Source: Stenopsyche tienmushanensis | Taxonomy: Eukaryota > Arthropoda > Insecta > Trichoptera > Stenopsychidae | NCBI GenBank assembly: GCA_008973525.1 | Contig: WACJ01000501.1 | Location: 1,364,001 to 1,428,000 of the forward strand | Length of the DNA: 64,000 nt | Direction of reading: 5' to 3' | In this document: piece by piece, positions 34,184-64,000 of the stretch | Numbering within the stretch: the first letter of the stretch is position 1 | Layout of the letters: every line of letters starts with the position of its first letter | Position numbers and translations under genes: made by a program | The notes under the pieces: generated by a model | What the model was told of the DNA's origin: nothing | The model's database searches: none | The model's input: the letters and a program-made list of their open reading frames with translations, nothing else

Positions 34184-34793
34184 TTAGTAAGCGCAGCCAC
34201 AGACAGGCCGCCTCGGGTAAAGGCCGTGTTCTCCACTGTAGCTGCTGCTGGCACTCGCGTGATAAACTCGAGCCGGTCCGAGTGATACCCAGTTGGATGG
34301 AGCATGTTGGCTTCCAGGTCTAAAGAAATGTCCACCGCCATACCAATGGCCGCCATTTTCAAAACTAGCGCTATGACTGAATGACACCCTGCCTAGTGGC
34401 CATCTTGGACGTCTATGGCAACCGCAAGGAACACAAGCGTCGGTCAACTGAAATGAATTGCTCTAAATTAACATTTCATTCGTATATTAACATAAATAAT
34501 TTGATAATAACTCGGGGAGATTAATTTATACCAATTGAATAGTCGGCTTATACAAGTTTGATTGCAACGGGATTGATTTTATTATATTATTATAAAAACA
34601 CAAATCCAATTTATGGAAGGAACAATATAAAATTTAATGTTAAATCATAAATATGATTTTATTCCATTTATTAAATGAAACGCTTTGGATTTTTAAATAA
34701 TTAAATATATAATGAAAGTATGAATAAATAAATAATTGATTTTCTTACCGCAATGACCAAGAAGCAGGCAAAAAAGAAGATAGTGAACTTCAT
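34184..34793 (-). CDS. Gene A: secreted Cys-Gly-Cys/His/Ser-rich protein (exons 34749-34793, 34184-34447)
   Basis: Two exons. Exon 1 (34,793 down to 34,749) encodes only MKFTIFFFACFLVIA, a signal peptide, and ends in phase 0 at GTAAGA. Exon 2 follows a tttcag acceptor and gives 87 residues to TAA, about 102 residues in all. The mature part starts LTDACVPCGC, has a middle with GGHWYGGG and ARVYHASASSS, and ends CGCAY. Short Cys-Gly-Cys motifs near both ends with a His/Ser/Gly/Tyr core suggest a disulfide-linked extracellular structural protein. Gene B is a clear paralogue. The promoter at 34,830-34,881 has GCATTCCAATT, a TATA box and TCAGTAAG. I do not recognise the family by name; cuticle, eggshell, silk or glandular coat are all possible. 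Confidence 0.85.
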
Positions 34794-34829
34794 ATTGAAA
34801 TTTCAGGCGAAATGGGATTAACCAATCTT

Positions 34830-34881
34830 ACTGATTGACTATTGGATGATGTCTAGGATTATATATCCTAAATTGGAATGC
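34830..34881 (-). promoter_or_regulatory. Gene A promoter (CATTCCAA box, TATA, initiator)
   Basis: Read on the - strand: GCATTCCAATT (34,881-34,871), TATATAAT (34,865-34,858) and a TCAGTAAG initiator starting at 34,834. Spacing matches genes B-E. Confidence 0.7.
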
Positions 34882-35648
34882 GCAAAACATATTTTTTCTT
34901 TGCTTGATCTATCGGTCTAGGCTATTGATTTATTGGAAATGTGCGATTTTTATTATTTGATTGATTATTTCAGGTTCTGCTAACAATGAAAACATATTTT
35001 AACAATGATCTGGATTGAATTATTGGATTGCTCTGTATCGTCTAAACAAATACAAACATATTAAATATAGATCGTCGCATAGAACATTTAAATCAATACA
35101 TAGCTGATCTCTACTGCAGTAATTTTTCATTTGCATTCTGTTTCTTTTAAATTTATGTAACGAGATCAATTTAATGGTATAAAATGGTAACATAATTCAG
35201 ATCTACGTTCAGCATTTGGGGATTGTATTAGAGCCACATCGTCTCTTGCTCGCTAAGAACTTGCAGTAAGAAATAATTTAATAACATATTTTATTAAATT
35301 CCAAACGCATTGTAATTATTTATTTGCTATCTAAAAAACATTTTTGAATCGTACACTTTAATGACTTTCTACGTTTTATAATAAAGATCATATTCACACT
35401 GGGATGAAAAACATCGGAATAAAATAAATTATTCTATTCTATTCTCCCAATAATTCCTGTTTAATGTCAATACTTCAAGTTAAACCTATTTCATTTCTAG
35501 TTAAATGCATGTTTAATATTATTTTTTTATAGCTCTGTTGAAGAAACAGTAAATACACCATATAATGAAATGAACCCTTTTGGGTTGTATTAGGGCACTT
35601 TTAAATAGCACCAAACAAATTATAGAAGACATTCTTAGATACATATAA

Positions 35649-36020
35649 ATGATCATCCAAATGCGACGCCTAGATATGATTTTTACACGTGTCGCCTTTT
35701 CAAAAGTCTATACAAAAAAAAGTTACTGTTGTGCATTTTGGGCAAATGGAAACATTGGGTCACATTTTTTCGTAGTTGGTGCTGGAAATGCTGTTACTAA
35801 GCGATACCAATCAACGCTGGGTGACTTTTTATGGCCACAATTGAATCATATTGATGAGTCTGATGTCTGGATTCCAACAAGAAGTCGCTACATGTCACAC
35901 AACTTGAAAGAACAAGAAAATGTTGAAAATAAAAACTCCTTGGCGTTGCATTTTGATGACTCTGATTTGCATATTAGATCAGAGTGTATTAAATTATGGT
36001 TGATTATCTTAAATTTCTAC
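35649..36020 (+). mobile_element. mariner-like transposase relic
   Basis: The + frame reads FWANGNIGSHFFVVGAGNAV and then YQSTLGDFLWPQLNHID, followed by SDVW where functional relatives have the catalytic FQQDGA block. This matches the region around the second Asp of insect Tc1/mariner transposases, but the active-site residues are lost. Confidence 0.7.
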
Positions 36021-36074
36021 CTTATACTAAGTTATATTTTTCAGTTAACCGAAGCCGGTAGCGGCAAATTGTAA

Positions 36075-37262
36075 TTCTTCGACGAAGTTGATATAAACGC
36101 ATCTCCCAGACTAAAAGCTTCGGATGCCTGCTAAGCCATCTTGTGCCATAGTCATAGTGACCTAACGAGAAAATTCAGCGGTTATTTGAGAGATAATTTG
36201 GAACATCTTAGCTGGAATGAATTTAACTCTCGCAGTATATGCGGGAAAAGCGATTGGGGCGTTTAATATCTTATGACCACAGTATCGGCGTTGAAATGAT
36301 TGGAGTGATTGATTGGAGATTGGAGTCTCGGGTGGATGTTTCACTCTAAGGCACTCACCCATAAGAACCCTAGAGGGGGACGACCCTACGCCCGTGGGTA
36401 ACAGTCGACCCTCTGAATCAAAAGCTGTTGGGTTTAGCTGAGCTAACATGATTGGGTGCGCAGCTTATCATAAAGTGGAATGTGGACCTGCCGATTGTAG
36501 AAGGTGCAGGAGAATTCAAAAGGTGACCACCATGGGGAAGGGGGAGCCCTTGCAGTTCATCATCTGCTGCAGCCCCCTTCAAGCCTGGATGCTCTGTGCT
36601 CAAGTTGTAGCAGACATTCTTGTGTTGCTAGTCCGAGGGCACTCGGAAAAGACTCTGTCATCAAAGAGACCAAACATACCACTAAGTTGCTGTCTATCCA
36701 GTCTCAACTTTTCTATCCGATCTTACGTAATACAATTTTCATGATTGATTTGTTGAAATGTATTTCTTTTATCGAAGGGTTGTCAAATAAGCCTTCGAGT
36801 TAAAAACAATGTATTGTGAGCGTGGACAATGCTGATGGATCGATTGCAGTTATGTCATTGAGGATTAAATTGATTGCATTGCTACTATGTGTGAGATAGA
36901 ATCGAGCATTCAAGAGTTGAATGTTTTCCCTGTGGTTCTTTAAACGAATGACACATTTTCGCATTCGAAAGAACCATCGAGTCTCGAGTGATGTCGTTTT
37001 TATCAGGACACGGTGTCAGATCTTTCATTGGTGTCAGATCGCGGACAAAAGTTTCGTTAATGCGATTGACGTCTGCCGCTTTGGGATTTGTGAGGAAGGA
37101 TTGTGGACAATAAAATATATATATTTATGCTGTTATTGATGAATTTTAATAAGTCTAAAAGTGAGTCCAAAATAAAAATAAATAACAAGGGAAGTAATTT
37201 GTATGCCGAAATAAAATTATTCTATGAAATTGTTAGTTTAAAAAACTTGGTGTTAGAAGAAC
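36075..37262. other. Spacer between genes A and B
   Basis: No gene recognised. 36,160-36,700 is less AT-rich and has long but incoherent frames on both strands; it resembles decayed repeat sequence. Confidence 0.5.
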
Positions 37263-37779
37263 TTAATGGCATCCGCAGGTCTTGACTACTGGAAGGCATG
37301 GTCTGGGGGCGACGACGATTGGATTGCCGTAGTAAGCGTGTTCAACGCTGTGGCTGCTGCTTGCGCTGGCGTGGAGGACGCGAGCTGCTCCAGTTGATCT
37401 CCAGCCGGAATCATGGACGGTTCCGGTGTGACGGACGACACCACCTCCGTACCAGTGACCTACGGGACGTTCTACGCTGACGCTGTGGCTGGCGCTGTAT
37501 TTCAATCCTCCGCGCCAGACTGGGACTGGAGCTGGGGCAACGACGACTTTGCTGCATACGGGTCTGGGAGCTGGGAGTGGGACTGGGACGACGACTTTCT
37601 TAGCGCACACTGGCTTGGGTGGAGCTTTGCATCCACAACCAGAGGCAACCTGCAAAATATCACCGCAGATGTACCATCAGATTTACAATAAATATTATAC
37701 CATCAAAATATTATGCAACCATTAAATTAACACTTACCGCTAAGGCGCCGGCGAAGAAGAAGAGGAAGAGGAACTTCAT
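37263..37779 (-). CDS. Gene B: secreted Cys-Gly-Cys/Val/Pro/Ser-rich protein, paralogue of A (exons 37738-37779, 37263-37649)
   Basis: Exon 1 encodes the signal peptide MKFLFLFFFAGALA and ends in phase 0 at GTAAGT. Exon 2 begins after TTTTGCAG and runs to TAA, giving about 142 residues. The mature protein starts VASGCGCKAPPKPVC, then has a Val/Pro-rich part with repeated VVVPVP and VVVAPAP, then GHWYGGGVV and ARVLHASASSSHS shared with gene A, and ends VKTCGCH. Compared with A it has an extra N-terminal Val/Pro segment carrying two more Cys. Coding sequence is much richer in G and C than its surroundings. Paralogy with A and the shared CGCH ending with gene G support a family of extracellular structural proteins held together by terminal disulfides; that role is inference. 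Confidence 0.88.
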
Positions 37780-37809
37780 ATTTAGGCACTCGTAGGTCAA
37801 GCTGAACTT

Positions 37810-41673: not shown

Positions 41674-42835
41674 CAGCGGAACCTCGGGTTACGAGTTTAA
41701 TTTTTTCCGGAAGGTAGCTCGTAAGTCAAAAAACCCGAAACGAATTTTCCCGTGAGAAATAATGAAAATGCAATTAATTCGTTCCCCACAAATATTACTA
41801 TAAAAATCTCATTTAATAATAAACAATATTATTTAATAATACCTATAATAATGTTAATATAAGTATAAAATATTAAAACAATTATTTATTCATGGTACTT
41901 CATGGCATGTCGGAGGTGATGGATGGAAGAGGCGATGGGAGGACTCGTCACTGTTACTGTCTCCCTCGATCAGCTGTATCTGTGGAAAACTGTCAACAGA
42001 TCTACTCCCGTAATCACTGACTTTTACTTTTTTCGAAAATTTGGGCTCAATTTCTTCACTATCTTTAACTTTTCTCTTAAATAATTTTTTAATCGACACT
42101 TGTTTTTGGTGGCTTTTCAACACGCTGCTGAAATGAGCCATAGCAATATCATTAAATAAATGAGTAGCTGCTGCTTTATATGGATGTCTTTCTTCCACAA
42201 ATGTTTGTAACTTTAACCACACTGTAGTAATAATCTCTGCTGTCGACAGTTTATTTTTCAGCCTCTCCTCTTCCTCCGTTCCCGACAGAGCCTTCTTTAG
42301 TTGATGGTGTTGTTGTTCATGCAACTCCTTCAACTCGTCGACGCTGAGGTCCTCGCTATGTTCTGCAACGAGCTCTTCGATGTCAAATTCGTTTACCTCG
42401 AGATTTACCCAGAGACACAATTTCTTCAACGGGCTCCTTTTTACTCACAACCCCTTGGAAATCTCGTTTTTAAACCACCTCAGGCCACAACTTTTTCCAC
42501 GCAGAGTTCAGTGTTCGTCTTGAAACACCCTGCCATGCTGTATCGATGAGTTACAGGTACTCTACGATATCGAAGTAGTTTTCCCAAAACTCGCGTAGGG
42601 TAAACTGTGTACTGTCAGTGACATTGAAGCAGAGTTTGAAAAGCCACTTCGTATACAATTTATTGAATTTAAAAATGACTTGGTGATCCATGGGCTGCAG
42701 GATAGGAACTGTGTTGGGTGGAAGGAAGACAATTTTTAGAAAACTAAACTCCTCCAAAATATTATCCTGAACTCTCTCGGTGTGGGCAGGAGCATTATCC
42801 ACAATTAGTATGGCTTTCAGAGGAAGATCATTGAG
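41674..42835 (-). mobile_element. Tigger-like DNA transposon with broken transposase
   Basis: The left end cagcggaacctcgggttacg is a typical Tigger terminus. On the - strand the transposase runs from DNAPAHTERVQ and LPPNTVPILQPMDHQVI (42,802-42,551), through a frame-broken middle with WPEVV, to VNEFDIEELVAEHSEDLS (42,429-41,890). The DNAPAH and LPPNTxxxxQPMD blocks carry the second catalytic Asp and nearby residues of pogo/Tigger DDE domains. The N-terminal half is missing; a mariner-like copy follows at 42,885. Confidence 0.88.
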
Positions 42836-42884
42836 ATATCAGAATCCCTACATATGACTGAATCTTTTACTATCTGTAGGGTTG

Positions 42885-43682
42885 ATACGATATAAGGGCA
42901 CTTAATTTTTAAATGTGAATGAAACAAGTAGTGTGTGAGATATTCACTATTTTTTTTGTTTAAAAGAATATTTTAAGCCATTTAGTATGGAATATAACGT
43001 CGTTCGAAAGTTCGCCGCGGCTTTACTTGGTGGCGCGTATTCAGGAGGTCCAATTTTCGTTGACTTTGTTGCATAAATCTGACTAAATTTGCCGAATGAC
43101 ATTCGTTATATTGACTTTTGATAATTGATAATTGTTTGCGATTTATACGAATAGACATAGGATTTAAGATAGCCCCAAAGGAAGAAGTTTAAAGGCGTTA
43201 AATCGGCGGTCAGTTCACGTCGCCACCGCACCAGATAACCATGCCCATACATCACTCGCGCAGAATGTCTATCGTGGCATGCGCTCTGTGGCACGTACTG
43301 TTGGAATCACATGTCGTCGGTACCCATACCGTCCAGCTTGAGATAATGGCGATGCCAGTTTCGTTTTGGAAGAAGTTTGGGGTGATCAAAATCCGCACCA
43401 AAATGTCTTTTTGGAAATGTATTTGGTGCTCATATAGATTGGTATCATTCCAATTCCGACATCTAAGTCACACACCCAATCATCCAAAAATGGGCTTCGT
43501 CGCTAAAGATGATTTTTTTTGCGAAATCTTTTTTCAAACGGAGCACTAATTTCGAAAATAAAATTTGATAATTTGCATATATTGTACAACGCTATATTTT
43601 TTATAATTTGAAAGATGTTGTTTTACTAACATGGCCCCTAAAAGTTAACATATTTTAAGCGTCCCTATTGAAAGACCCTGTA
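42885..43682 (-). mobile_element. mariner-like element, family 1 copy c
   Basis: The ends are inverted (about 42,885 and cctattgaaagaccctgta near 43,680) and it matches copies at 2,863 and 17,690. The - frame at 43,106-43,294 contains DLTPLNFFLWGYLKS, the block after the second catalytic Asp in this group. Frames are broken. Confidence 0.75.
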
Positions 43683-43863: not shown

Positions 43864-46671
43864 TCAGCAAATTTTATGAGGCCAGTATTTCTTTGGGCAA
43901 GGATGGTGTTTATTGATTATATTGTACAGCCCTTTTGCAAATCCATGTTTGAAAGCACAACAGTCGTCGCAGTCAGGATGTCTCTTGCAATGCCACCAGA
44001 GATTATAGAAACAGTTATCTTTTGGTGGTCCAGGAACATCCCAATCGTGGTTCCAATTGTGGCATGCTTGCGTCGTCTGAAATGGAGGAATTGAAATATG
44101 ATATAAAAATATGTCTATGATGAAAAACGTATTCCAATATGATACGACAAATTAGTTTGGGATTCTTGTCTCATTCTGGAGGAGTATTAAATCCTTAGCT
44201 TAGGATTTGCCAACTTTTTTCCTAAATGGACCCTTTTTAGAAGAATTACTTTCATAGATAGACCCCCTAACATTTTTATATTTAATATACATCACACAAT
44301 ATAATAAAAAATACCAAAAATTACACATAAAAAAAATTAGACAATTGTGGTTTAATTTGGTGTATTTTTTTGCTCGGTTGTGTGGCTTTCAAATGGATTT
44401 ATATTTCAAGGCAGATATCGAAACTTTCTAAATCTTTATAACGGGCAATGATATCTTCTTTGAATTATTTTAAATTATCAGTGTAGATTTGAATGTCATC
44501 GATAAAAATTCCATATTTTTCAATACCAGAAAATTGCATCAAGTGGAAATAAAGAAATCCGTTTTGTAGCGAAATCCAAATATTATTCTTCCAGTTTTAA
44601 TAAGTTAGCCTTGTGATTATTTTTGCATATCATTAACAAAGAAAATATTCGATTAATCTTATTGCCATAATCAATAAATGGGTTTCCAAAAGGATTTCAA
44701 TTACAGAATTAAATATTTCAATGAAAGACGCAAACAATTGTCTTTCGACAACCAACGGACTTGTAGGTGATACAGCAAATTATTATATTGGGTGTGTGAA
44801 TAAGTTCCTGCCGTTTCACCGTCAGATGGGAGTAAAATGATTGTTGACGAAAAATTTGGAAACATTGCTTGATGAAACTCCATGTTAAACGCAATATGAA
44901 CTTGCAATATCATTAGAAATTTGATTAGATTGTCAGGCAGCATTGAGAATGATCCAAAAGGAAGAATTTTGGGTGCCTTACGACTTGAAGCTGAGGGACG
45001 TGGAAAGGCGTCTTTTAGCGTGTAAAAAGCTGCTCAAAATGGCGAGAACTTATTCACACACCCAATATCATTCCATTACTTTTACATAATTAAGTAAAAA
45101 GGCAATCATTCAAAGCCTTGGCTTTAATTGTTTTAAACTTCCAAAGTAACATAAAATGTGCAAACAAATGAGAAATGTCAACTACTAAATTATCTAAACA
45201 AAAAATTGACAATGATTTTAAATTTAGTTTAATTTAAAAAAAGTTTTCTAGATGATGCCATTTCCAACGGTATGCTGCATGTTATACAAATCATTCAAAA
45301 AGTCGTTAAATCTGAAGAGGTACCAGTTTGCCAGGGTCAGGCTTAAGAAAATACTTTTTTATGCATATGTTTTTATTAAATTTATTTACAAAATTTGTTC
45401 AAATTGGCCACGTTTGCTTCGTATGCACGCACTATATTTTTTTCTTATTTCAATTGTAGTAGTCTAAAGCAGCCAAACAAAGAAATCCACTGGTGTCAGG
45501 TCTGGAGGCGGTGAGAGCACCGAAATAGTGCCGCCAAAAGAATTGATTTACATGACAGAGGTGTTCACAAAAGAAATCCTAATTGTAATAATAGCCGTCT
45601 TTGCAAAAATGAAAGACGGAATGCTTCTTCAGAAAACTGAAGTTGAAATAAGGAAAAGGTGGCGTACGTGCATACGAAGCAGAGATGGCCAATTTTATCA
45701 AATCTTGTAAATGAATTTAATAAAAACATCATAAGCATAAAAAGTGTCTTCTTAGCCCTGATTCTGGCTAACTGGTACCTCTTAACTTCAACGATCCTGA
45801 TATTGGACCCATGTGTGAAACGTAACAAAAGACCCCCCCTAATCCCCAAAAAAAAATTTTTTTCAGTACGTGTGCAAAACATCCTGTATATTAAAATAAC
45901 CCTTAAAATACAAATTTAAAGTTGAATTCCATATACAAAATTTGTAAATTATTAACACACATCTGTTTTAGTTTAAAATTATAAACCACTTGCTGACAAA
46001 CGATCTATTAAAAAATCGTATATGACAAAACAAATATAAGTCGAGTTTGAAAGTATGAAATTTGGGAATATTTTTTGTCATATCTAGAACCTCAAAAAAA
46101 AATTCAAACAGAATATATTCCCTCTCCCCACTCATATCCAGTGCAGCAATTTAGGAAATTAAAAAAAAACCGTACAAATTTTATTTTATGCAATAAAAAA
46201 TAGTTTCTCAAAAAAACGAGAGTTCTCGCTTTTTTTTAATATATCTCAAAAAAATTTTCGAGGTATAATTCTCGAAATCACATTTTGATTTAGATGCGCA
46301 AATCACACCCCCAATAAAAATCTACAACATATTTGTACATTTTAAAGCGGATATAGCTATGTGATAATTTCTTCAAAAATAAATTAAATTTTAAAACAGA
46401 AGAATGTGTCGTGGGCCCCCAATAGAATCTATTCAAACTTCCATAGATCTCCAAGGGATCCACTGGGATCACGTTGGGAACCGAAACATTAACTCAACGA
46501 TAAACCATTAGCAATCAAATTTATTACATGAATACAACATGAATAATATTTTCTATAAGATAATGTAAACCATATGCTCACTTTTCAAGTTTAATCAAAT
46601 CAAATCAAATAAAATCATTATACCTCAAGGAACATGAAGCAGAAGAAGATAAGGAATATTGCCTTCATCAT
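43864..46671 (-). CDS. Gene C: secreted Cys-rich peptide, 8 Cys (exons 46624-46671, 43864-44076)
   Basis: Exon 1 encodes MMKAIFLIFFCFMFLE, a signal peptide, ending in phase 0 at GTATAA. A 2.5-kb intron follows. Exon 2 starts after a catttcag acceptor with TTQACHNWNHDWDVPG and ends KKYWPHKIC then TGA, about 86 residues in all. Cysteine frame: C-x16-C-x7-C-x5-C-x2-C-C-x19-C plus an extra C-terminal Cys that makes eight. The first inter-cysteine loop carries WNHDWDVPGPP, and the Asp/Cys cluster CDDCC is distinctive. D and E are tandem paralogues with identical structure. I do not recognise the fold; size, signal peptide and Cys pattern fit a secreted disulfide-rich peptide. The coding exon retains G/C-rich codons in AT-rich DNA, which argues against decay. 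Confidence 0.85.
44190..46600. other. Gene C intron content
   Basis: AT-rich. 46,360-46,560 is homologous to 56,700-56,880 in the gene E intron, so the duplication included introns. A large foldback lies at 45,312-45,786. Nothing else recognised. Confidence 0.6.
45312..45786. repeat. Foldback element with ~155-bp inverted arms
   Basis: Left arm about 45,312-45,475 and right arm about 45,629-45,786 are imperfect reverse complements, sharing gaggtaccagtt, tttttattaaatt, aaattggcca and tgcttcgtatgcacg. The loop is about 150 bases. It lies in the intron of gene C. A non-autonomous foldback transposon is likely. Confidence 0.75.
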
Positions 46672-47074: not shown

Positions 47075-47230
47075 AAATTGGCCGCATGCAATTATATTTA
47101 TTTTGAATCTGAAATTGTAATACGTTTATGAAATTTAGGCAACGAATATGAATTTTAGTTCATAGTGGCAGGGACAAATAGTGACAATGGTTTCATGGTT
47201 CTTTGATTCATTTTTCTTTTAATAGTTTTT
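47075..47230 (-). pseudogene. Relic of the 3' end of an F-like gene, upstream of C
   Basis: Aligns with the 3' end and flank of gene F (58,340-58,500): gcatgcaat, tttatgaaatttag, cgaat and then a decayed copy of the Cys/Pro-rich C terminus (tggcagggacaaatagtgac). It no longer encodes the terminal Cys-Pro-Cys-Pro-Tyr. It occupies the same position relative to gene C that F has to E. Confidence 0.65.
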
Positions 47231-47492
47231 AGCACGTATGTGCTTCTTTTTGTGGATTTTGGATTCGTGCTAGTTTTTTGTGTCCCTTAAGACCACTAGA
47301 AAATTTTAAGATATTGTATAAGAACTCTATATAGTTTAATGCTTTAGGTTTTTGTTCATAAATAAATATAATATGCTTGTATTTTGTAATCATTTATTTT
47401 TATTATGCGACATTTTTACATATGTATTCAAGTTTTTGATATAAAAATGAAAAAAAAGAGAATACAACAAAATTTTGCGGACATCAAATCAG

Positions 47493-49126
47493 CTAATGAG
47501 GCCATAATTTCGGGCAAGGATATTCTTTATTGCATATTTTTTTCACCCCAAGTCCAAATCCATATTTAAAAGCACAGCAGTCGTTGCAATTTGGATGTTC
47601 CCTGCAATAGCACCAGAGATTATAGTAACAGTTATTTTTCGGTGGTCCACAAACATCCCATTCATCGTTCCAATAGTGGCATCCTTGCGACGTCTGAAAT
47701 AAAAAAAATTGAAATATGATAATAATCTATGATAAAGTCTATGATAAAAAAATGAATTCCAATATGACACAATTAATTACTATGGGATTTCATGACTACT
47801 ATCAATTTATTCTGGAAGAGTATTAAATCTCTTCCAGAATACGTCTACAAAGTGATACTTTGTTGCTTCAAATCAATCTGATTTTTCAGGACAATTGGCA
47901 ATCAAATTTGTTACTATAGTAAAAACACATGAATATTACCTTCATTAGGATAGTACAAACCATTTGTTCACATTTAAAAATTAACGGTCACGTACACGGT
48001 CAGTTCTGCTACAATTTGACCTTACCGGACATGGCTGCTTTGGAGCGTACTTCCACAAAATAGCTAAGGAGATAAACCCGAAATGCCGTTATTGTGGAGC
48101 AACCAACGACGATGCCGCACACACGACGTTCGACTGCCTAGCATAAAGCATGGAAAAGGACACTCTCTGCGAGGAGCTTGAATTAAATACGCTCTCGCCC
48201 GTCAATATAATTCCTTCAATGCTTGAGGTTGCTAGGGTTGGAATGCGTGGGGCAGGTATACAAATTGCGTTATGCAGGAGAAAGAAAACGCCAAATGTAA
48301 GAGGCGAAGAAGAGCTGCTGAAGCATCCCATACTGAACAGACAGAATAATCCAGAAGCTGACATAACTGAAGAGCCCAGGATGGACATATTGCTGCTACC
48401 CTAGTGCAAACTAGTAGCCGGGTGGCAGCAGAAGAGAAGGGGGCAAAATTTTCGGTCATGAGGTCAAATCGTGAGGTCTTCAATAGGGAGGACGTAAAGC
48501 ATGGATGCCGACTAATAAGAGTCCCTCGAATCATTGTGAATTCGGGACCGAATGGCAGTGGACCCGTCGGAAGACCTCGGCTACTCTGGGTTCATCAGAA
48601 AAGACGCTGTACGTCTCGACCTGGGTAATTGGAAAGAAGAGGCTCACGACATACGGAAATGGCGAAATGCGCTATCGGTGGCCGTGGCTCTCTTATGAGG
48701 CCACAGAATCCACCTAGAGATTCTGATTTTTCGATGATTTTTATTTCTCAAGAAATGAGAATTCTCGTTTCATTTCTCAAATTTCTCGAGAATTCTTAAG
48801 AAATTTTGATGAACAAAAAAATGTATGTAAAAGTGTTAAGTATTAAATATTATTATCTTAAGTATGTAATTAAAATAAAACAACTAAAAATATAGTTAAC
48901 ATTTAAAATTACATTATTTCGTATGGTTTTTAAAATAAATCTTTGAAAACCACGACTATCAAAATTGATTTCTGAAATTTCTTAAGAAATCAGAAAATAT
49001 CTCAAGAAATGAGAAATTCTCGAGAAGAAACTTTAGAACCCCCCAAAGGAAGTAAAAGATTAAATAAAATAATTTTACCTCAAACAGCACGAAGCAGAAC
49101 AAGATAAAGAACGTTGCCTTCAACAT
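47493..49126 (-). CDS. Gene D: secreted Cys-rich peptide, 10 Cys (exons 49079-49126, 47493-47693)
   Basis: Exon 1 encodes MLKATFFILFCFVLFE and ends in phase 0 at GTAAAA; the intron is 1.4 kb. Exon 2, after tatttcag, starts TSQGCHYWNDEWDVCG and ends PCPKLWPH then TAG, about 82 residues in all. The seven core cysteines keep the C-x16-C-x7-C-x5-C-x2-C-C-x19-C spacing. Three more cysteines appear inside the first loop (DVCG), the second loop (LWCYC) and the last loop (KICN). It is the most divergent of C/D/E, with CNDCC instead of CDDCC. The intron contains a LINE fragment at 47,985-48,720. Likely co-expressed with C and E through a shared promoter. Function unknown. Confidence 0.85.
47985..48720 (+). 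mobile_element. LINE ORF2 C-terminal fragments
   Basis: The + strand reads FDLTGHGCFGAYFHKIAKE, CRYCGATNDDAAHTTFDCLA (a zinc-binding CxxC...H...C end of R1-type ORF2) and SPVNIIPSMLEVARVGMRG. From about 48,540 a different LINE-like end reads GPVGRPRLLWV. Both are broken and lie in the intron of gene D. Confidence 0.75.
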
Positions 49127-49203: not shown

Positions 49204-49554
49204 TTTTTAGCATCTGTTTCTTATGTTATTGATATTGGACCCAATTATTTATCAAATTAATTACTTGTTTCTGATTTATGTTATCTGTTCAATTATAGAC
49301 GCAGACACTTTAAGTAAAATGTATGTAGGGTGGGAGTGATTGATCATAATGTACTTATTGTTTTTGTATATTGTTTGTGATTTAGAATTGACTTAGGAGA
49401 ATAAAAATATGTATTATCTCTTTGAATAGATGCCATTGCTTGTTTATGAATAATATATCAATTTGAATTTATTGATAAATTGGATAAATATCGATGAATG
49501 TGATGGAAAGTTTCATCGACGATAAATTAGTCTTCATCAAAAAAAAGTTTTTAA

Positions 49555-49700
49555 AGCATGCAGTTGTATTTATTTAGGATACGTTTATAGTAACTGAATA
49601 TTTATGAAATTTAGATATCGAATTTCAGTTTTCATCGGTGATCATCAGCAAACAGTGACAATGTTTTCGTGGTTCTTCGATCTGCTTTCAAACTTTTACT
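49555..49700 (-). pseudogene. Relic of the 3' end of an F-like gene, upstream of D
   Basis: Aligns with 58,345-58,520: aaagcatgca, tttatgaaatttag, tatcgaattt, gagttttc-like sequence, then a decayed C-terminal coding end (agcaaacagtgacaatg, ttcgtggttcttcgatc). The coding frame is lost. Confidence 0.65.
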
Positions 49701-50339: not shown

Positions 50340-51459
50340 GCGTTGGTGAAACACATTTAAAATATGAGCCCCCCAAAAATGATTAACTTCTCACAGATTC
50401 ACTCCAACCGACACTACGGCAGTCATGGAGGCACTCTAATCTACATAAAAATAACATAAAACAACACAAAACTAACATTCCACAACTTATCAACATCGAA
50501 GCATCGAAATACTGCGCTTCTCAGAATAATATCAGTCTATCATCTCCCAAATAGACTCAAATTACCCACAGGTGATCTAGACATTCTTCACAATGACCCC
50601 CAAATTCCCACGATCATTGCGGGAGATCTGAACGCCAAACATCACAGTTGGAATTGCATACGCGAAAACTCTAACGGCAAAATCTTATACGACTACGTGC
50701 AAAATAATTCCGCAATAGAAATCTGGGACCCTGGCGTCCCCACTCACTTCGAACACCACGGAGTCTATGATATCTTAGATATAGCTATAGTTAAAAATTT
50801 CAGAAATAAATGGAACTACAATATTCAAATGGTCAGCGATCTCTCCTCAGACCACGACCCTATCATTGTTGATATCTCTTTAGACACATCTTTAGACAAT
50901 ATCTTCTTTATGGAACCTAAAAAATCCATCAATTGGGAAATATATAAAAAAGCTATATTTACAACTATTAAATTTCCTGAAGCATTGCACTCGATCTCAG
51001 ATATCGAGGCTACAGGTAATAAATTCACTCAACAAATTAATTCTGCAATTCGCACGATTTCATCCCAAATTCAAATCTGATCATCCTTCTGATTCGATCG
51101 TTCTCTATGCGGATCGTTCACTGTCATAATGTCGAAGTCGACTAAGATAAACTTGATTTGCATGCGCTTTCAATCTCAATTAGACTTGCTAAGCGTCTGG
51201 AATTCTAGGTGGAGAATTACGGTAAATAAAACCGCGGCCAAAAAGAGCGCGGCGGTGTTGTTCGCCATGGGATTTTCGAAGAAGAAAAAATCCCTCGAAA
51301 TTTCTCTCACCCTCCCACCATGAACCATCCCGTGGGTCAAACAAACCAAATATCTTGGAGCAATTTTAGATTTACGACTCACCTGGGCTCCGCACATTGA
51401 CAGTGTCACCAAAAAAGCTCGCGGAACCTTGGCTGCCTTAAAAAAGCCCATCCTATGTA
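50340..51459 (+). mobile_element. LINE with AP-endonuclease and RT, 5' piece, split by piggyBac
   Basis: The + strand shows an endonuclease domain with IIAGDLNAKHHSWNC, DILDIAIVKN and SDLSSDHDPIIVDIS, matching the EEP nuclease of Jockey-type LINEs. Most of the RT is deleted; it resumes with TKYLGAILDLRLTWAPHID and KKARGTLAALKKPILCI just before the TTAA at 51,460. The rest of the ORF continues at 54,071. Confidence 0.85.
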
Positions 51460-51463: not shown

Positions 51464-54066
51464 CCTTTTAACTGCCATAGCGTAATGAGCGAGCCGTGCG
51501 CTCCACGCCAGCGAATTTAGAGATAGTAGAAATTGCATAAAAATGAGTTTGACTTGCATATTTTATTGCCAAAAGGTGACTTATGTGTCCCAGCATATAT
51601 ATGTATACCACATGCCATCCTACGGGATCATTTACGGCTTTTGAGTGATTCGTGATTAGGGTTGCCACAACTCATAATGATTATATTTTTTTATTTAATT
51701 TTCTGCTAATATTATATACACGCCATTCAAATTAATTGTTTATTTAGGGTTGTCTCAATTTATATAAACAAATATTATTATTTTTGAAAAATATTTTTTG
51801 AACCAATACACTTTATTTATATTGTTTTAAAAATTCAATTGTGTGTGATAAATTTTAAAACATGGTTCTTTACACAGTGGCACATTACACTGTATACACA
51901 CATATTTTTTATCCGTTCTTTTTTTATAAGAAGAACAAACAATAAAAACAATTATTTTTCTCAAATACGTTGATGAAGTTCCAGGTTTTGTTCCAATCGA
52001 AAAGGGTTTATTACCAATAAAATGAGTATTGACTCCTAACCGTGATGGTAGACTCGTGGATGTTATTTTCGCAACTATCAGTATTTTATGTTTTTCAAAT
52101 AATTGACCTATCACTGAATAAGAAAATTTAGATAATGACATCTGCTTTCCGGTTTTCAGCATATACAGTGCATTTGCATTGAACATTATATGCATTAGGA
52201 GCTTCTTATACCATCTCATGGTTTTTATGATGCTTTTTATGGAGCTTATCATCATGTCGCTCCTATCTACACTTCCCATATTTTTACTATAATCAATAGC
52301 TACAGTAGGTTTTAGTTCGGGCTCGCCGATTTTGTAATTTGTTTTTCCAGTTTCTACAAATTCAGGAGTGTGAATTGTCGACAACATGGTAACGTCCCTT
52401 TTGTCCTTCCATGCTAGAGCCATAATAGTTTTTATATGAAATGAACACGAATCCCCTTTCTTCATTTTTTTTGAATGCTGGCATTTCGAGACGATTTCTC
52501 TTCACAATTCCGACTGCATTGGTTTTGCTTTCTTGCAATTTCTGGAATAGTTTTGGGGTCGCAAACCAGTTATCAAAATATAATGTATGACCGGCGCCTA
52601 AATATGGGGTAATGAGAGACATTACGACTTTAGCTCCAACTCCCATATCAGAATTATCAGTAAATTCTGTGGTTGATCCTGTATATATGATTATATATAA
52701 CACATAATTTTATACCAAAACGACTGACTTTTGACGGTATATATTGTTTAAAAATCAGGCGTCCTTTAAATAATAATAGACTTTCGTCGATGCAAATTTT
52801 CCTATAAAGATAATATGCACTTGCAATTTTTTTTTTTTAAATGTTTAAAATGGGATTTATTTTATGCAAACTTCTAAAACTAAACTAAACATGTTCTTCA
52901 TTGTTGTAACAATGTAACATGCGAAGTAATTATTGAAATCTATTTCGAGGCATAGTTTCTGAATATATTGGTGAATATAATAATGGATCAGTTGACCAGT
53001 GATGATCTATTGAATTTCTTGAATTTAATGGGAATAACAAATACAGACCCAAAAAACATATATTTCATCCTTATTGGAATCAATCCACGATTTTAGGCGA
53101 GTACTCAAAAATGGTAATTTGGAAGTCACATAATGATATTGACGGTTAGTCTCTGTAACTATTATGTTTACCATTTCGTCGTCCACAAAATATTTTAAAA
53201 AAACCCAATTCGCTTTCATTTTCATCACTGATATTTATTTCAATACCTGACGAAGTGTCATCAAATGGATGGATTATAGGACTAAAATCCCGCTCTTCCC
53301 AAATAAAAACGCCTGCACCTGTGGGTTCTTGAAAGAGTGTTACATTATCCTCATCATCTAAAGAAAATATGTCCTCCCCAAAAGGTAATTCACTAAAACT
53401 TTCATTATCAGAGTATTCACCTTCATCCGAAAAAGCTTTGAATTCCATTTTTATGGAATAATATCAAATTCATATCACACGTCAAAAAATATTATCAAGA
53501 AACAATTCACAGCACAAAATCACGAAATAGTCTCAAGACAAAATCATGAAAAAGTTTCAGCACAAACTTAAAAATGACAATTTTTATAAATCACGGGAAA
53601 AAAATGAGAATTTTATATAAAAAATCGCAATAAGACGAGTATAAAACGATTCCTGTCAGAAGACAATTTACGAAGGATTGATGTTTTAGGAGATAAATGG
53701 TATTCCCCGGTATTGTGGTATTATCAGTCATATAAACAAATAAGGCAAATTTAAGTGACGATGCTCTCCCGTTCCCAAATATGTACATACTTCTCACAAT
53801 AGAATCAGTTACGTAGCAAAGATCATTCAGTAGGCAGCCCTGATGACCTCTGTTGAATTCATTTAAAAATGAAAGGGAAATACCGAGTTTTTTAAAAATG
53901 TGAAGGCATTTTTGGATTCATCAATATGTGTTCTTAGCATAGTAAAATTTAAGTGTTAAAAAATATGTGTTTTTCTGTGATGAAACGTAGTTGCGCACGG
54001 GCGCGTCGTTGGCGTACGGGGCACGAACACGTCTGACGCACCGGCGCGTCGTTGGCATTTAACAGG
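51464..54066 (-). mobile_element. piggyBac-like transposon with TTAA target duplication
   Basis: About 2.6 kb, bounded by TTAA at 51,460-51,463 and 54,067-54,070, with inverted ends ccttttaactgcca and, on the other strand, cctgttaaatgcca. The - strand transposase is in several frames: an acidic N terminus (53,448-53,146), a domain with VNIIVTETNRQYHY (53,228-53,025), IDESLLLFKGRLIFKQYIPSK near 52,800, TLYFDNWFATPKLFQKLQ (52,703-52,362), VAIDYSKNMGSVDRSD and a C-terminal Cys-rich zinc-finger-like end with CIQCNVPLC (52,465-51,827). IDES, DNW and the SVDRSD aspartate are the places of the catalytic Asp residues of piggyBac. Frame breaks indicate inactivity. It disrupts a LINE. Confidence 0.92.
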
Positions 54067-55201: not shown

Positions 55202-57886
55202 TTAATGAGGCCAGTAGATCTTTGGGCAAGGATGATGTTTTTTGAGTATTTTGTACAGCCCATTTGCAAATCCATGTTTGAAAGCACAACAGTCGTCGCA
55301 GTCAGGATGTCTCTTGCAATGCCACCAGAGATCATAGTAACAGTTATCTTTCGTTGGTCCAGGAACATCCCAATCGTGGTTCCAAAGCTTGCATCCTTGC
55401 GACGTCTGAAATGCAGGAATTGAAACACGATAAATTTGAAAAGGTATTCCACGTGTCTATTGGGGATCGACAAATTTTTTTTCTGCTTTAAAATTTTATT
55501 TGATCTTTAGTCGCGTTAAAAGTTTATTATACGTTGAAATGGCGCACGCACTTAGTAATTATTTGAAAAGAAATGCAGTACGTGATTTATTGCTTTAGGC
55601 AATGTGTAGCGCGGGTTGAAGGGTTAGGATCCAAAAGCATGCGCGCGCTCGCTCTTGCCTGTCTTCATCTTTCCCGTGAGCAGAGTTCAATCGGCGTATT
55701 GCGCGCGCATCCTTTCTCCCCTCCCCCTTGCTTAATTCATAATTAAATAGCATTATAGTCAGTGGCGGATTTAGCACTTTTTTGGCCAAATTTCAACTCT
55801 TAATGCCGCGTAAAAATGAAACCGTATATTTCGAAGGATGGGCATTACTTTTTTAAACTCTGCTATTCATCTTCAATATCCATTTACAGGTAGGGGTTAC
55901 ATCCACTTCGTCTTTATCATATTTCACGGTTCATGCCCAACATCAGAAGGCCAAACCCGTGCAGAAGAAGAACCATAAACGAGGTTATATACTCAATCCT
56001 TCTGTACGGAGCTCCGATAAGGCATGAGTCGCTCAGACATGAGAGCTACAGAAAGAAGCTGGCAAGGGTCCAACGGCAGGGAGCGCTCCGAGTCACCACA
56101 TCATACAAAACAGTATCTGAAGAAGCCGTGCTCGTAATCGCTGGAATTCCCCCACTGGACCTCCAAGCAAAGAAGAGGGCCTTGGACTTTGAAGATTCCA
56201 AAAACCATAACGAGCATGACCAGAAACTGGAAGAAGCCTGGCAGTAGAGATGGGATTAGTCCAGTAAGAGAAGATGGACCCACCGACTTATCCCGGTCGT
56301 AAGCCGGTGTAGGGTCCGAAAACACGGCGAAACGACCTACCGCTTGACTCAGGTGCTCACTGGACACGGATGTTTCGGTGCGTACCTGAAGCGGATTAGC
56401 AAAGAAGCATCCGCGGCGTGCCTCCAACACTATAATAAGGCCAATTAATTAAGACCAGACTACCTGTCCTCCTGAAGCAATGTGGAAAATAATACCAAAG
56501 GGGCAGAGAAGGACAAGGGAAGGGTTTAGTCAGTAAGAATCTGACACTACGCTGGGGTCAAACCCAGGGTGTCTTATGCAAGATTTTCCTCCCACAGGAA
56601 AAAAATGTTGAGGGTAGCATAACCACCGTGTTTCATTTAGAAGGCTCACTCATCGAATCACCTGGATGGACGTATCGAAGGACGCTTTCGCGACTGTCTC
56701 AATATTACACATAAGTCAGAAAAAATGTATCGTGGCCCCTAATAAGGCGTACATCCATAGATCTCCAATAGATCCACCGGGACTACATTGGAAACCCAAA
56801 CTTTAATTCAACGGTAAACCATTAAAAATCAAATGCGTTACTATGGGGAAGAAATATTAAAATATCTTCTATAAGATATAATGATTTTTATAACTATCTC
56901 ATATAATTAAATAAAATCATTATGCCTCAAGCCTCAATAAAACCGAAGCTATCTTGTTCTCCGTGAAACGGAAAAATCTTCGAATTGATCCAATAGTCGT
57001 CGGGTCCAGCTCTATCGAGTGGAAACCCCAAGTGAAATACTTGGGGGTGACTTTAGATAGAAGACTGAAGTGGGGAGCACAGGTGTCGGTGACTCGTGCC
57101 CGCGGATTAGCAGCTATGGGGGCGCTGCACTCCATATTTCGTCGGCGCAGTGCTCTCTCGGCCTCTAACAAATTTTTATTATACAAAACGCTGATTCGAT
57201 CTACACTCACATACGCCGCTCCCGTCTGGAGCAACATATGCAACACCAACTACAATAAACTTCAAATCGTACAAAACAAAGCCATAAAAATTGCTTTCAA
57301 TATATTTCCATACACTAATCTTAAACGTTTTCACAATAAAATTAAGCTTCCTTTTATAAAGAATTTTTTTCATAAGCTAACACTCAATTTTTACTCAAAA
57401 ATTCCAAATCACACCAATCATCTCATATCTACACTCGGCGAATATACCACTCAAAACAATAATTTTAGATACGTTCACAAAATGCCTAAACATATTTTAC
57501 TATAGTTGATAGTCATGAATGCGCGACGTATGAAGGATATATGATTGATTGATTAAATTATTTATTTTGTTTAGTTTGTAAGATAGTTTTTAAGGAATGT
57601 CGCAAAGGGGTTTTAAGTCTCCTATTTTTCCCCCTATATATACAAAAATTAAATTAACTCTTATTATGTAAAATTTATTATAACTAAAATATATATTTTT
57701 AATTAAGATAAGGATAGTAATCTAAGACTTAAATTGTTAATCCATTTTTCATGTAATTGTGTATATTGATACACCATTTTACCTTGTTATATTATATTTT
57801 TTGAATAAAGGTTTATAAATAAAAAAATAAAATTATGCCTCAAGGAACATGAAGCAGAAGAAGATAAGGAATATTGCCTTCATCAT
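55202..57886 (-). CDS. Gene E: secreted Cys-rich peptide, 7 Cys, GC donor (exons 57839-57886, 55202-55405)
   Basis: Exon 1 encodes MMKAIFLIFFCFMFLE, identical to gene C, but its donor is GAG/GCATAA where C has GAG/GTATAA, so splicing would need a GC-AG intron. Exon 2, after a gcatttcag acceptor, starts TSQGCKLWNHDWDVPG and ends KIYWPH then TAA; about 83 residues in all. It carries just the seven core cysteines (C-x16-C-x7-C-x5-C-x2-C-C-x19-C), an odd number that leaves one free for an intermolecular bond. The intron holds a LINE whose target duplication overlaps the donor. Exon 2 is intact and close to gene C, so the gene may be functional despite the donor, or a very recent pseudogene. Confidence 0.75.
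55545..55690. repeat. Interspersed repeat (pairs with 12,340-12,560)
   Basis: Second copy of the repeat at 12,340, in the intron of gene E. Confidence 0.5.
55930..56610 (+). mobile_element. R1-type LINE ORF2 C-terminal fragment
   Basis: The + strand reads INEVIYSILLYGAPIRHE, RVQRQGALRVTTSYKTVSEE, AVLVIAGIPPLDLQAKKR and later LTGHGCFGAYLKRISKEAS, all typical of R1-type ORF2 after the RT. It is the same family as 47,985. The zinc-finger end is missing. A 3' tail of about 170 noncoding bases follows. Confidence 0.8.
56932..57831 (+). mobile_element. 5'-truncated LINE in gene E intron, 13-bp target duplication
   Basis: The + frame 56,954-57,505 reads VKYLGVTLDRRLKWGAQV, FLLYKTLIRSTLTYAAPVW and VQNKAIKIAFNIFPYTNLK, the ORF2 C-terminal part of a Jockey-like LINE, open to its own stop at 57,505. 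A 3' UTR and A-rich tail (aataaaaaaataaa) follow. It is flanked by attatgcctcaag at 56,919-56,931 and 57,832-57,844. The duplication spans the exon 1/intron border of gene E. Confidence 0.9.
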
Positions 57887-57911
57887 CTTGTTTCGGTTTT
57901 AGTTTTAAGAA

Positions 57912-58456: not shown

Positions 58457-59257
58457 TCAGTAGGGGCAGGGGCAAGCAGGGACAGTGCGTTCGCGGCTCT
58501 TGGATCCGCGTTTTTCGTGGCTTTTGGATCCGCGCTTTTCGTGGCTTTTGGATCCGCGCTTTTCGTGGCTTTTGCGTCCATGCTTTTCGTGGCTTTTGGA
58601 TCCACGTTTTCCTTCTTTGCTCTTGGAGCCATGATGATGCCCGGCTGGTGGTAAATCGCAGGGCAGAGGAAGGATACTTCTCTTCTTGTGTTCGTGGCTT
58701 CCCGATTTGCGCTTGCCACCTTCGCAACTCTTAGAACCGCTCTTTTTCCCGCGGCCTTCGTGCGATCCATGACGCTCATGACTTCCGCGGATTCTGATGG
58801 GTGGTCCTAAAAATAGAGGGTCGGTTGGGCAAGGTGGGCCAGGTGGGCCGGGTGGGCCGGGTGGGCCGGGTGGGCCGGGTGGGCCGGGTGGGCCGTGTGG
58901 GCCATGTGGGCCGAGTGGGCCGGGTGGGCCTCCACATTCGGGCGTTGGGAAAGGACGGGCAGGACAGAAATCACCCTGCGGTAGTTGGGAAATGGTGCAG
59001 CCATATGTGGCCTGAAAATTAAATATTGTCAATTGATAAAAAAATATATTTTCAATCATATTAAATATTATTTTGCAACATTTTTCTGTGGAATAAATAG
59101 GAATATGAGATTAAAGACAATAATATTTTATTAAAACATATAATTTATCATACTACTAATATATACAAAGTGCAATTAAATACAAATGAAAAAAACAAAC
59201 TGTCGAAATAGACTTTACCCCCAGATAGAAGAATATCAAAAACGTCAGCTTAATCAT
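58457..59257 (-). CDS. Gene F: secreted mini-collagen with Lys/Ser/His/Gly repeats (exons 59219-59257, 58457-59011)
   Basis: Exon 1 encodes [13 protein letters not shown], ending in phase 0 at GTAAAG. Exon 2, after aattttcag, runs to TGA, about 197 residues in all. Order of parts: an N-terminal segment with three Cys ([19 protein letters not shown]); about ten Gly-X-Y triplets, [18 protein letters not shown] and on, a minimal collagen triple-helix tract closed by CPTDP; a Gly/Ser/His/Lys segment ([18 protein letters not shown]); a short hydrophobic [13 protein letters not shown]; a basic repeat in which SKSHEKRG recurs about four times; and a Cys-Pro-rich end, PACPCPY. Such a protein could trimerise through the collagen tract and cross-link by disulfides or Lys. 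Collagen-based silk is known in some sawflies, but this tract is far shorter, so I infer only a structural secreted protein. All frames across the repeats are open, but only this one joins the signal peptide and collagen parts. Confidence 0.88.
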
Positions 59258-59294
59258 TTTGCAATCGGAAAGGCCACTTTAACGAAATAATAGC

Positions 59295-62300: not shown

Positions 62301-62455
62301 CATGTGAAAAAAATCATTCTATTACCTCCATTTTGTAAAACTTCGATGAACTACAGAAAGAAATGCAATTGGAAATTAAAGTGAGCTTAAAAGCTATTTA
62401 CTTTTGACTAATTAAAAAGGTACCCGTGTGCAAAGCGTGTTTTATTAAAATTTAA
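59331..62455. other. Spacer between F and G
   Basis: Mostly AT-rich. 59,900-60,480 is less AT-rich with short frames of no clear meaning. 60,950-61,190 on the + strand has a broken frame (MAENHYFKKYPKSEDL, then QKIKQHILPVYKDLSRNEL and LQRCLGG) that looks like a conserved transposon-associated protein fragment. A poly(A)-like run lies near 62,067. No intact gene seen. Confidence 0.5.
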
Positions 62456-62646
62456 TGGTACAATCCTGTTAACGGGGGGCAAACATATTGGTGAATTGAA
62501 ACGACTACCAATACTTTTTTTTTGCTTTCCTTTTATTAAATTTAAATTCTAATCTTGTTAGGTTAGGTTTTTTGTTTTAATTGTATCGAAATGAACGCGT
62601 TTTCAATTCACCAATATGCTTGCCCCCCGTTAACAGGATAGTACCA
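62456..62646. mobile_element. MITE with ~46-bp inverted termini
   Basis: The ends are near-perfect inverted repeats: tggtacaatcctgttaacgg on the left and, read on the other strand, tggtactatcctgttaacgg on the right, both continuing with ggggca and attggtgaattgaaa. Length is 191 bp. It has no coding capacity. Flanks are AT-rich, so the target duplication is unclear. Confidence 0.85.
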
Positions 62647-63079
62647 AATTAATTATGTAGTTTCATCAAATATTAATATGGTTTTATTTTGAGCTCAAAA
62701 AGTTTATTATCATTTTTAATCTGTTTTCACATATAATCTTGTACACTTGAAATCTGATTAGAATAACTTAATAATAATATGTCATTTCAGAATATTTGTT
62801 TAAATAAAATTACTTGTTTTTTAAACGATTTCTTTTAAAAATATAAATATTTTTCGAAATGAATATAATTTTCATATGCAAATTATTTAAATTATAATGA
62901 TCACAAATTGCAGGAGTGTTCTTAATTAGAATATAATATTGTTATGATTGTGTTACATAAATACTACTTTGAAATAGAGCATACTCTCCCAAATTGATGT
63001 TTTTTTTTAAATTAAGAAATGGTAGCGAAAAAGAAATTATCTAAAGATTTTTGTGTTAATAAAACGTCAATTAACTCCT

Positions 63080-64000
63080 TTAATGGCATCCGCATGGTGG
63101 TGGTGGTGGTGGTGGTGGAGGAACGTAATAGGTTCCAGAATGACTATTTGCTGCAGCATTGCTGAAGGATCCACCGCTTCCGCTTCCAGAATGGGAATTG
63201 GCACCCGATCCGCTGAAAGATCCACCTCCGCTGCTTCCAGAGCTAGAGCTAGCTCCGGATCCACTGAAGGATCCTTCACCGCTGCTTCCGGAACTAGAGC
63301 TAGCTTCGGATCCGCTGAAGGATCCGCCACCGCTGCTTCCGGAGCTGGAACTAGCACCCGATCCGCTGAATGAACCTCCACATCCACTTCCGGAAGAACT
63401 TTGAGATCCAGCGTTACTGAAAGATCCACCACCTACGCTTCCAGAGTTAGCGTTAGCACCTGCTCCGCTGAACGAACCACCGCGCCCGCTTGATGAGAAA
63501 CCTTCGGCTCCAGCATTGCTGAATGATCCACCTCCTGAGCTTCCAGAGTTGGCATTGGCACCGGCTCCGCTGAACGATCCACCGTGTCCACTACCGGAGA
63601 ATCCTTCGGCTCCAGCATTGCTGAATGATCCACCTCCTGAGCTTCCAGAGTTAGCGTTAGCACCTGCTCCGCTAAACGAACCGCCGTGTCCGCTCGATGA
63701 GAAACCTTCGGCTCCAGCATTGCTGAAAGATCCACCGCCTACGCTTCCGGAGTTGGCGTTGGCACCTGCTCCGCTGAAAGATCCCCCAAATCCGCTTCCA
63801 GAGAATCCTTGGGCTCCAGCATTGCTAAAAGATCCACCGCATCCACTTCCAGAGCTAGCTCCGGCTCCGGCTCCGCTGAACGAACCACCGCGCCCGCTTG
63901 ATGAGAAGCCTTCGGCTCCGGCATTGCTGAATGATCCACCTCCTGAGCTTCCAGAGTTGGCATTGGCACCGGCTCCGCTGAACGATCCACCGTGTCCGCT
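63080..64000 (-). CDS. Gene G: Ser/Gly/Ala repeat structural protein, 5' end beyond window
   Basis: The - strand frame stays open for 306 codons from the window edge to TAA at 63,082-63,080. It is built from two alternating 17-residue units, GGSFSGAGANANSGSSG and GGSFSNAGAEGFSSSGH, giving a composite of about 34 residues (102 bases) repeated several times. The repeats degrade towards simpler GGSFSGSGASSSSGS units near the C terminus, which ends NSHSGTYYV, eight prolines and CGCH. Two isolated Cys occur inside the array (SGCGGSF). The CGCH end is shared with gene B, linking G to the cluster. The composition resembles silk-, glue- or cuticle-type proteins. Codons are G/C-rich in AT-rich DNA. 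The other open frames on both strands are shadows of the repeat. The signal-peptide exon is expected beyond position 64,000. Confidence 0.85.
   Translation of the reverse strand, partial: SGHGGSFSGAGANANSGSSGGGSFSNAGAEGFSSSGRGGSFSGAGAGASSGSGCGGSFSNAGAQGFSGSGFGGSFSGAGANANSGSVGGGSFSNAGAEGFSSSGHGGSFSGAGANANSGSSGGGSFSNAGAEGFSGSGHGGSFSGAGANANSGSSGGGSFSNAGAEGFSSSGRGGSFSGAGANANSGSVGGGSFSNAGSQSSSGSGCGGSFSGSGASSSSGSSGGGSFSGSEASSSSGSSGEGSFSGSGASSSSGSSGGGSFSGSGANSHSGSGSGGSFSNAAANSHSGTYYVPPPPPPPPPCGCH

Follow-up and report, generated by a model that had tools for sequence, protein, structure and literature searches.

Which secretion does a run of small secreted-protein genes serve, and how did the run arise? 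The question is raised by a 64-kb stretch of contig WACJ01000501.1 (the window, i.e., the whole stretch of DNA that was analyzed), in which seven genes for secreted proteins (A to G), all on the minus strand, occupy the part from position 34,184 to the window end. The window looks eukaryotic and insect-like, with intron-bearing genes amid transposon debris. Our answer, in which both the tissue and the insect order are deduced from DNA, is that the cluster probably encodes a gland secretome of an insect, most likely coat or glue proteins of the labial (silk) gland in a moth or caddisfly lineage.

Complete two-exon models were obtained for A-F, with splice structures rebuilt by script, and gene G is truncated at the window end. 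The six complete genes share one plan: i) the coding part of exon 1 is short (45 nucleotides (nt) in A, 42 in B, 48 in each of C, D and E, and 39 in F) and ends in phase 0 in all six; ii) exon 1 codes for signal peptide only, with cleavage sites that, judged by eye, likely lie a few residues inside exon 2; iii) the introns measure 301, 88, 1385, 2547, 2433 and 207 nt in A to F respectively; and iv) the second coding exons span 201-555 nt. An earlier sequence-only reading had placed seven minus-strand genes here, which was borne out. It had also described a signal-peptide-only exon 1 of 39-48 nt in phase 0: the length and phase held in 6 of 6 genes (the plan being visible in six of the seven, as G is cut), and exon 1 indeed encodes nothing besides signal peptide, though not the whole of it. 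Its model of gene E needed correction at the donor site, which is GC instead of GT.

We judged the gene models A-G real because of the placement of promoters and, in G, the pattern of change by codon position. A TATA box with a TCAGT-type initiator, the usual arthropod promoter motif, stands upstream of all six genes A-F. A strict pattern (TATA[AT]A, then TCAGT 21-27 nt on) gave six matches over the two strands of the 64 kb. Five of them belong to A, B, C, D and F as their promoters, and the sixth, at 5,349, lies on the plus strand. With either A or T accepted as the first base of TCAGT, gene E and a plus-strand site at 20,256 were added, giving eight matches, of which all six on the minus strand are the promoters of A-F. 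Since block shuffles of the sequence produced a mean of 2.15 and up to 10 strict matches, it is the placement of these sites, not their count, that is informative. Within G, seven comparisons of successive units of its 34-amino-acid (34-aa) repeat showed 32, 30 and 100 differences at codon positions 1, 2 and 3 respectively (162 in total). Poly(A) hexamers, found within 300 nt past the stop in A-F and not past the stop of G, were dropped as support for the models because 60% of random 300-nt windows carry one too.

Table 1. Positions of the seven genes and of associated elements in the window.
Feature	Position	Strand	Description
Gene A	34184-34793	-	exon 1 34793-34749, exon 2 34447-34184; 102-aa preprotein, ends CGCAY; paralogue of B
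CATTCCAA + TATA of gene A	34860-34880	-	pattern search
Gene B	37263-37779	-	exon 1 37779-37738, exon 2 37649-37263; 142-aa preprotein, ends CGCH
CATTCCAA/TATA of other genes	B 37860/37845; C 49203/49186; E 57962/57945	-	
Gene D	43864-46671	-	exon 1 46671-46624, exon 2 44076-43864; Cys-rich 86-aa preprotein
Decayed F-tail copy upstream of D	47122-47271	-	score 66 vs shuffle maximum 33 (200 shuffles)
Gene C	47493-49126	-	exon 1 49126-49079, exon 2 47693-47493; Cys-rich 82-aa preprotein
Decayed F-tail copy upstream of C	49544-49688	-	score 98 vs shuffle maximum 28 (200 shuffles)
Gene E	55202-57886	-	exon 1 57886-57839, GC donor; exon 2 55405-55202; Cys-rich 83-aa preprotein
LINE-like insertion in E intron	56932-57831	+	flanked by two CTTGAGGCATAAT copies (57844-57832, 56931-56919)
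Gene F	58457-59257	-	exon 1 59257-59219, exon 2 59011-58457; mini-collagen, ends CPCPY
Gene G, partial	63081-64000	-	34-aa Ser/Gly repeat, then PPPPPPPPPCGCH; exon 1 beyond window

The products fall into four families, A/B, C/D/E, F and G, with F and G each alone. Identity is 55% between A and B, 62% between C and D and 86% between E and D, which narrows the sequence-only reading's claim of seven very different proteins. All seven products contain cysteine (Cys), at 4-10 residues each. The collections searched for relatives are largely microbial or viral and appear to contain few insect proteins, and F and G were scanned against Pfam only. Among 5.8 billion proteins, A/B drew 498 candidates and C/D/E six, none at an expectation value (E) up to 0.001. 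Scans of viral contigs gave 111 pattern stretches for A/B and 108 for C/D/E, and bacterial and archaeal contigs gave 25 for C/D/E, none of them confirmed. Against Pfam, A, B, D, F and the partial G had a sole match at E up to 1 (Collagen, in F), and C/D/E had none at E up to 10, hence no TIL/EGF domain of the zonadhesin-like silk proteins. C/D/E had no match up to E 1 among sequences of solved structures, and the predicted structure of their exon-2 products (mean predicted local distance difference test score 62.3) matched two PDB folds at E up to 10 and none up to 0.001. Because these sources appear insect-poor, the absence of relatives does not make A/B or C/D/E new families. The impression that the cluster is undescribed therefore stands in part: the sequences of A/B and C/D/E are without relatives in insect-poor collections, but the gene plan is well described for silk genes.

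The C/D/E family appears, from its sequences, to be changing fast, in a nearly neutral or diversifying manner, with its Cys frame retained. The second exons of C, D and E encode products with 10, 8 and 7 Cys respectively, and all seven Cys of E are conserved in C and D. The rates of nonsynonymous and synonymous substitution (dN/dS) were 0.221/0.264 for C-D, 0.231/0.258 for C-E and 0.093/0.076 for D-E; such near-equality does not by itself demonstrate protein constraint. The frame of D reads three residues (KIC) beyond the stop of C and E, which adds a terminal Cys (43864-43880, minus strand). Small, disulfide-rich peptides in near-neutral or diversifying evolution would also suit saliva, gall-inducing, venom or antimicrobial gland secretions in which C/D/E are the active peptides. 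We consider this origin quite unlikely: the neighboring genes look structural (collagen, Ser/Gly repeat), and C/D/E show no known family or confident fold, a silence that bears equally on every rival.

Four of the genes share a C-terminal feature, in that A, B, F and G end in Cys-X-Cys (CXC) followed by one or two residues (CGCH in G; Table 1 for the others). The window holds 273 stop-to-stop open reading frames (ORFs) of 60 aa or longer; five of them end in CXC plus up to two residues, and four of these five are A, B, F and G. Since A is a paralogue of B, the ending amounts to three independent cases, in A/B, in F and in G. Cys-terminal motifs, together with clustering and a split signal peptide, also fit chorion genes, and the cluster might instead encode eggshell (chorion), ootheca or egg-glue proteins of the ovary or female accessory gland, which would be Cys-rich, clustered and disulfide cross-linked, with an intron in the signal peptide. 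Three observations make this unlikely: i) the Pfam scans (E up to 1 for A, B, D, F and the partial G; up to 10 for C/D/E) contained no chorion domain; ii) all seven genes lie on one strand, in contrast to the divergent pairs typical of moth chorion; iii) neither the mini-collagen nor the Ser/Gly repeat of 34 aa resembles chorion. Cuticle or other epidermal matrix proteins, among which a short signal-peptide exon and low-complexity products are frequent too, would account for the stretch of Val/Pro/Ala that B carries, which is similar to cuticle proteins. They are nevertheless an improbable source, as no cuticle or chitin-binding domain was matched in Pfam and Cys is present in all seven products, whereas most cuticle proteins are without it.

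The two single-member families have a structural look. Gene F contains 11 Gly-X-Y triplets without interruption, with Cys on either side of the run, and then a basic Ser-x-Glu/His/Lys tail. The run matches Pfam Collagen at E 8e-05 with 22.8 bits, under the curated cut-off of 27.2, being unbroken but short; a proline-rich run needs roughly 11 triplets as a minimum to fold into a triple helix. The secretory-pathway casein kinase has Ser-x-Glu as its motif, of which F contains 10 copies (1.20 expected), A two (0.29 expected) and B two (0.20 expected). The part of G inside the window is 31.8% Ser and 31.5% Gly, compared with 13.8%, 10.2% and 10.9% Ser in A, B and F. A long repetitive second exon is absent from A-F, and repetition is confined to G and the short tail of F.

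Gene plan, terminal CXC and Ser/Gly repeat are what make silk or glue the best guess of tissue. In the available portions of the published accounts, heavy-chain fibroin (FibH) genes have two exons with an exon 1 of 39-45 base pairs (bp) and introns of 73-5159 bp (PMC11241164), a range that takes in exon 1 of A, B and F, with the 48 nt of C/D/E slightly outside. According to the same kind of partial source, Limnephilus caz genes mostly have two exons, of which the first is short and encodes the signal peptide in part and the second is long, and they are clustered (PMC11092239), and cadhezin-like genes of Neomicropteryx follow a comparable plan (PMC11906653). Ser1 proteins are described there as having CXCX near the C-terminus, and sericin genes as clustering and duplicating (PMC9745057, PMC8347419, PMC9684489, PMC12661448). 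The sequence-only reading had proposed an exon-shuffled gland secretome; its secretory cluster with a shared gene plan is supported, with silk or glue as the best tissue guess, and the exon-shuffled origin is not.

One result on the upstream regions points the same way. Fork-head-like sites upstream of A-F number 12 against 5.2 expected, and a fraction of 0.009 of control sums reaches 12, in a set where C/D/E are mutual copies; Fkh/SGF-1 regulates silk genes, as stated in the accessible part of one report (PMC5831788). The motif CATTCCAA occurs eight times on both strands of the window, and is followed by TATA within 4-16 nt four times, namely before A, B, C and E; in shuffles such pairs averaged 0.06 and never exceeded 2. 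D has CATTCCAA with one mismatch, and F has TATA alone (59328). The CATTCCAA-TATA pattern was picked after inspection, and since C and E are copies, its independent support comes from the A/B and C/E lineages. The CATTCC core is presumably reminiscent of a TEAD/Scalloped site. The CATTCCAATTA element of B bears a short resemblance to a published sericin-1 MIC site; by a rough estimate the likeness is within chance, and it was not used.

Several observations weigh against a silk coat. A short signal-peptide exon is found in other insect secreted-protein genes as well. Terminal CXC is absent from C/D/E, which counts against one uniform system, and Ser-x-Glu is not enriched in G (1 vs 1.93 expected) and does not occur in C/D/E. 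Of the other sites sought upstream of A-F, the cores for SGF-2 and MIC come out borderline (fractions of 0.069 and 0.068), POU sites number zero in the six regions, and the ATTA/TAAT cores of homeodomain proteins show no enrichment when taken together (the count of E is reached in 33 of 300 controls, that of F in 297 of 300). A-F are far below the size of sericins in the published descriptions at hand, and strong Ser-richness is seen in G only. Finally, in the portions of those descriptions covering Yponomeuta, exon 1 of FibH encodes 10 residues, an exception to the 39-45 bp (PMC9684489), and Ser1 has its motif 17 residues before the end and eight exons, compared with the extreme end and two coding exons here.

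How the cluster grew can be read from its duplications. In a self-comparison, C, D and E showed long matches to one another in their flanks and exons. Decayed copies of the tail of F lie upstream of C and of D (Table 1); four control regions compared with the F tail gave background scores. By part, the copy upstream of C scored 32 vs 23 for late coding sequence and 85 vs 28 for the 3' untranslated region (3' UTR), and that upstream of D 34 vs 29 and 49 vs 28 (second values: maxima of 100 shuffles each). When the promoter/exon 1, intron and collagen part of F were each compared with four stretches, one of 12 comparisons topped all 100 shuffles (28 vs 27, for promoter/exon 1 at the D copy), and this single exceedance by one point was taken as chance. 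An initial idea of two lost whole copies of F was dropped, as nothing of F recurs clearly apart from its late coding part and its 3' UTR. The F-tail copies and the C/D/E flank matches therefore indicate that a unit consisting of an F tail and a C/D/E gene underwent tandem duplication at least twice. The F-tail copies may derive from whole F copies that decayed or from copying of the tail only, and both routes amount to tandem duplication of stretches.

This history bears on exon shuffling, by which a single signal-peptide exon would have been joined repeatedly to unrelated second exons. In its favor, exon 1 agrees in phase and is of similar length among the A/B, C/D/E and F families, CATTCCAA-TATA is common to A, B, C and E, and there is a weak signal between the promoter/exon-1 region of A and those of C, D and E, whose scores only 4, 4 and 3 of 300 random segments reached. 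The region of B is unclear against C, D and E (45, 55 and 14 of 300), and that of F is indistinct from random segments against all five others (51, 176, 131, 28 and 214 of 300 for A to E); the random segments were drawn from the whole window including the cluster, so that a few match true copies. Moreover, the observed duplications span whole stretches of the locus, namely flanks, both exons and the tail of F, and the 3'-terminal CXC shared by A, B, F and G fits descent of whole genes or convergence. We thus regard exon shuffling as very unlikely, and the exon-shuffled diversification put forward by the sequence-only reading found no support.

Gene E has a history of its own. The insertion in its intron contains an ORF (56915-57502) without a Pfam match of its own, for which 12 relatives were found among 98 candidates, none of them assigned to a taxon; the insertion is called LINE-like (long interspersed nuclear element) because 4 of these 12 carry a reverse-transcriptase domain (PF00078). 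The 13-bp CTTGAGGCATAAT duplicates the end of exon 1 and the GC donor (whole span 56919-57844), and the paired copies are read as a target-site duplication. With this weak-looking GC donor, E may be spliced poorly.

Assuming a silk coat or glue, the following working of the cluster can be proposed. Compact two-exon units with a TATA-initiator promoter would suit strong output from one gland, and the proteins, once the signal peptides are removed, would be cross-linked as secretion sets. The terminal CXC of A, B, F and G could form intermolecular disulfides. The Gly-X-Y run of F could provide a trimeric mini-collagen node, locked by the Cys on either side, and its basic Ser-x-Glu/His/Lys tail could bind phosphate or metal. 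G would serve as a hydrated, sericin-like filler, and C/D/E would be small disulfide-rich peptides, perhaps protective or cross-linking, that arose by tandem duplication of a unit which carried the F tail as well. Phosphoserine-metal bridges are reported, in the part of the source consulted, to stiffen caddisfly silk (PMC12976744). A more specific version, which we offer tentatively and hold to be possible rather than probable, is a silk coat, of a moth or caddisfly, whose trimeric cross-link node is a disulfide-capped and phosphorylated F between CGC-capped A/B and G, accompanied by a new C/D/E family, all from one co-regulated, fast-turning cluster. If true, this would place collagen within a fibroin-type insect silk and represent a new material design.

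Literature searches gave the following within the titles and abstract starts of the matches listed: no C/D/E-like peptide was named in work on small silk peptides, no moth collagen silk protein in that on collagen-like proteins, silk gland and Lepidoptera, and no insect silk in that on minicollagens. Searches joining silk gland, Fam20C and phosphorylation, or silk and the colorectal mutant cancer protein, found nothing. Silk coat genes diverge fast and are hard to find by similarity; a search that does without similarity could rely on gene plan, TATA-initiator promoter and terminal CXC together. The locus further retains copies that document part of its growth, in which one gene was duplicated along with the tail of its neighbor.

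Elsewhere in the window, a USHBP1 PDZ-binding (harmonin-binding) domain is encoded in two exon-like pieces at 26378-26868 (plus strand; Pfam E 4.2e-07 and 1.7e-05), which belong to a conserved gene and could give a landmark of synteny. Relics of transposable elements include a piggyBac-like transposase (DDE_Tnp_1_7/zf-Tnp_2; 51830-52501, minus), a DDE_1 transposase (42554-42838, minus) and a LINE-type endonuclease (50460-51077, plus). A dispersed repeat of ~150 bp and a size like that of short interspersed nuclear elements recurs at 2868-3021, 17701-17863 and 42892-43065 (79-80% identity). A GC-rich stretch at 20-22 kb (0.51 GC) holds a 371-aa stop-to-stop frame (21088-22200, plus) with no Pfam match up to E 0.01. 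In the window, Rfam gave no match at gathering scores and ARAGORN no transfer RNA.

The likeness to known systems extends to both the silks and the collagens. In its working the cluster rather probably resembles a silk coat or glue system, short of established membership in the sericin-1 family. Compared by description only, it is like moth sericin-1 (Ser1A/Ser1B) and the sericin clusters in secretion, clustering, duplication, CXC near the C-terminus and, in G, a Ser-rich repeat, and unlike them in that A-F are small and have two coding exons, that CXC, in the four genes with it, stands at the extreme end, and that G alone is strongly Ser-rich. With the caddisfly caz genes, pseudofibroins and the FibH plan it shares a short exon 1 for part of the signal peptide, a single further coding exon and heterogeneous clusters; caz genes are said, in the portion of the account at hand, to be without a conserved 3' Cys sequence, whereas four genes here have one, and the second exons here are 201-555 nt. 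The small silk peptides of Limnephilus (SMP, YEC) are, in a similarly partial account, alike in small size (SMPs 49-91 aa), clustering and multiple copies, and are set apart, by descriptions only, as regular-Tyr peptides in contrast to the Cys/Trp/His-rich C/D/E. Among collagens, F resembles cnidarian minicollagens in a short helix with Cys on both sides, from which disulfide networking would follow. It differs in having 11 triplets compared with the 12-16 given in the sources excerpted (fewer in some myxozoan minicollagens), in being, by eye, without the C...C...C...C...CC domains canonical there, and in having a basic Ser/His tail instead of a flanking polyproline stretch. The willow sawfly (Nematus), likened by description only, offers Gly-Pro-Pro collagen in an insect: its silk fiber is described, in the part of the account available, as three collagen proteins, compared with one short collagen beside unlike proteins here. 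The kind of system is one already known, and it is the combination, the mini-collagen above all, that looks new.

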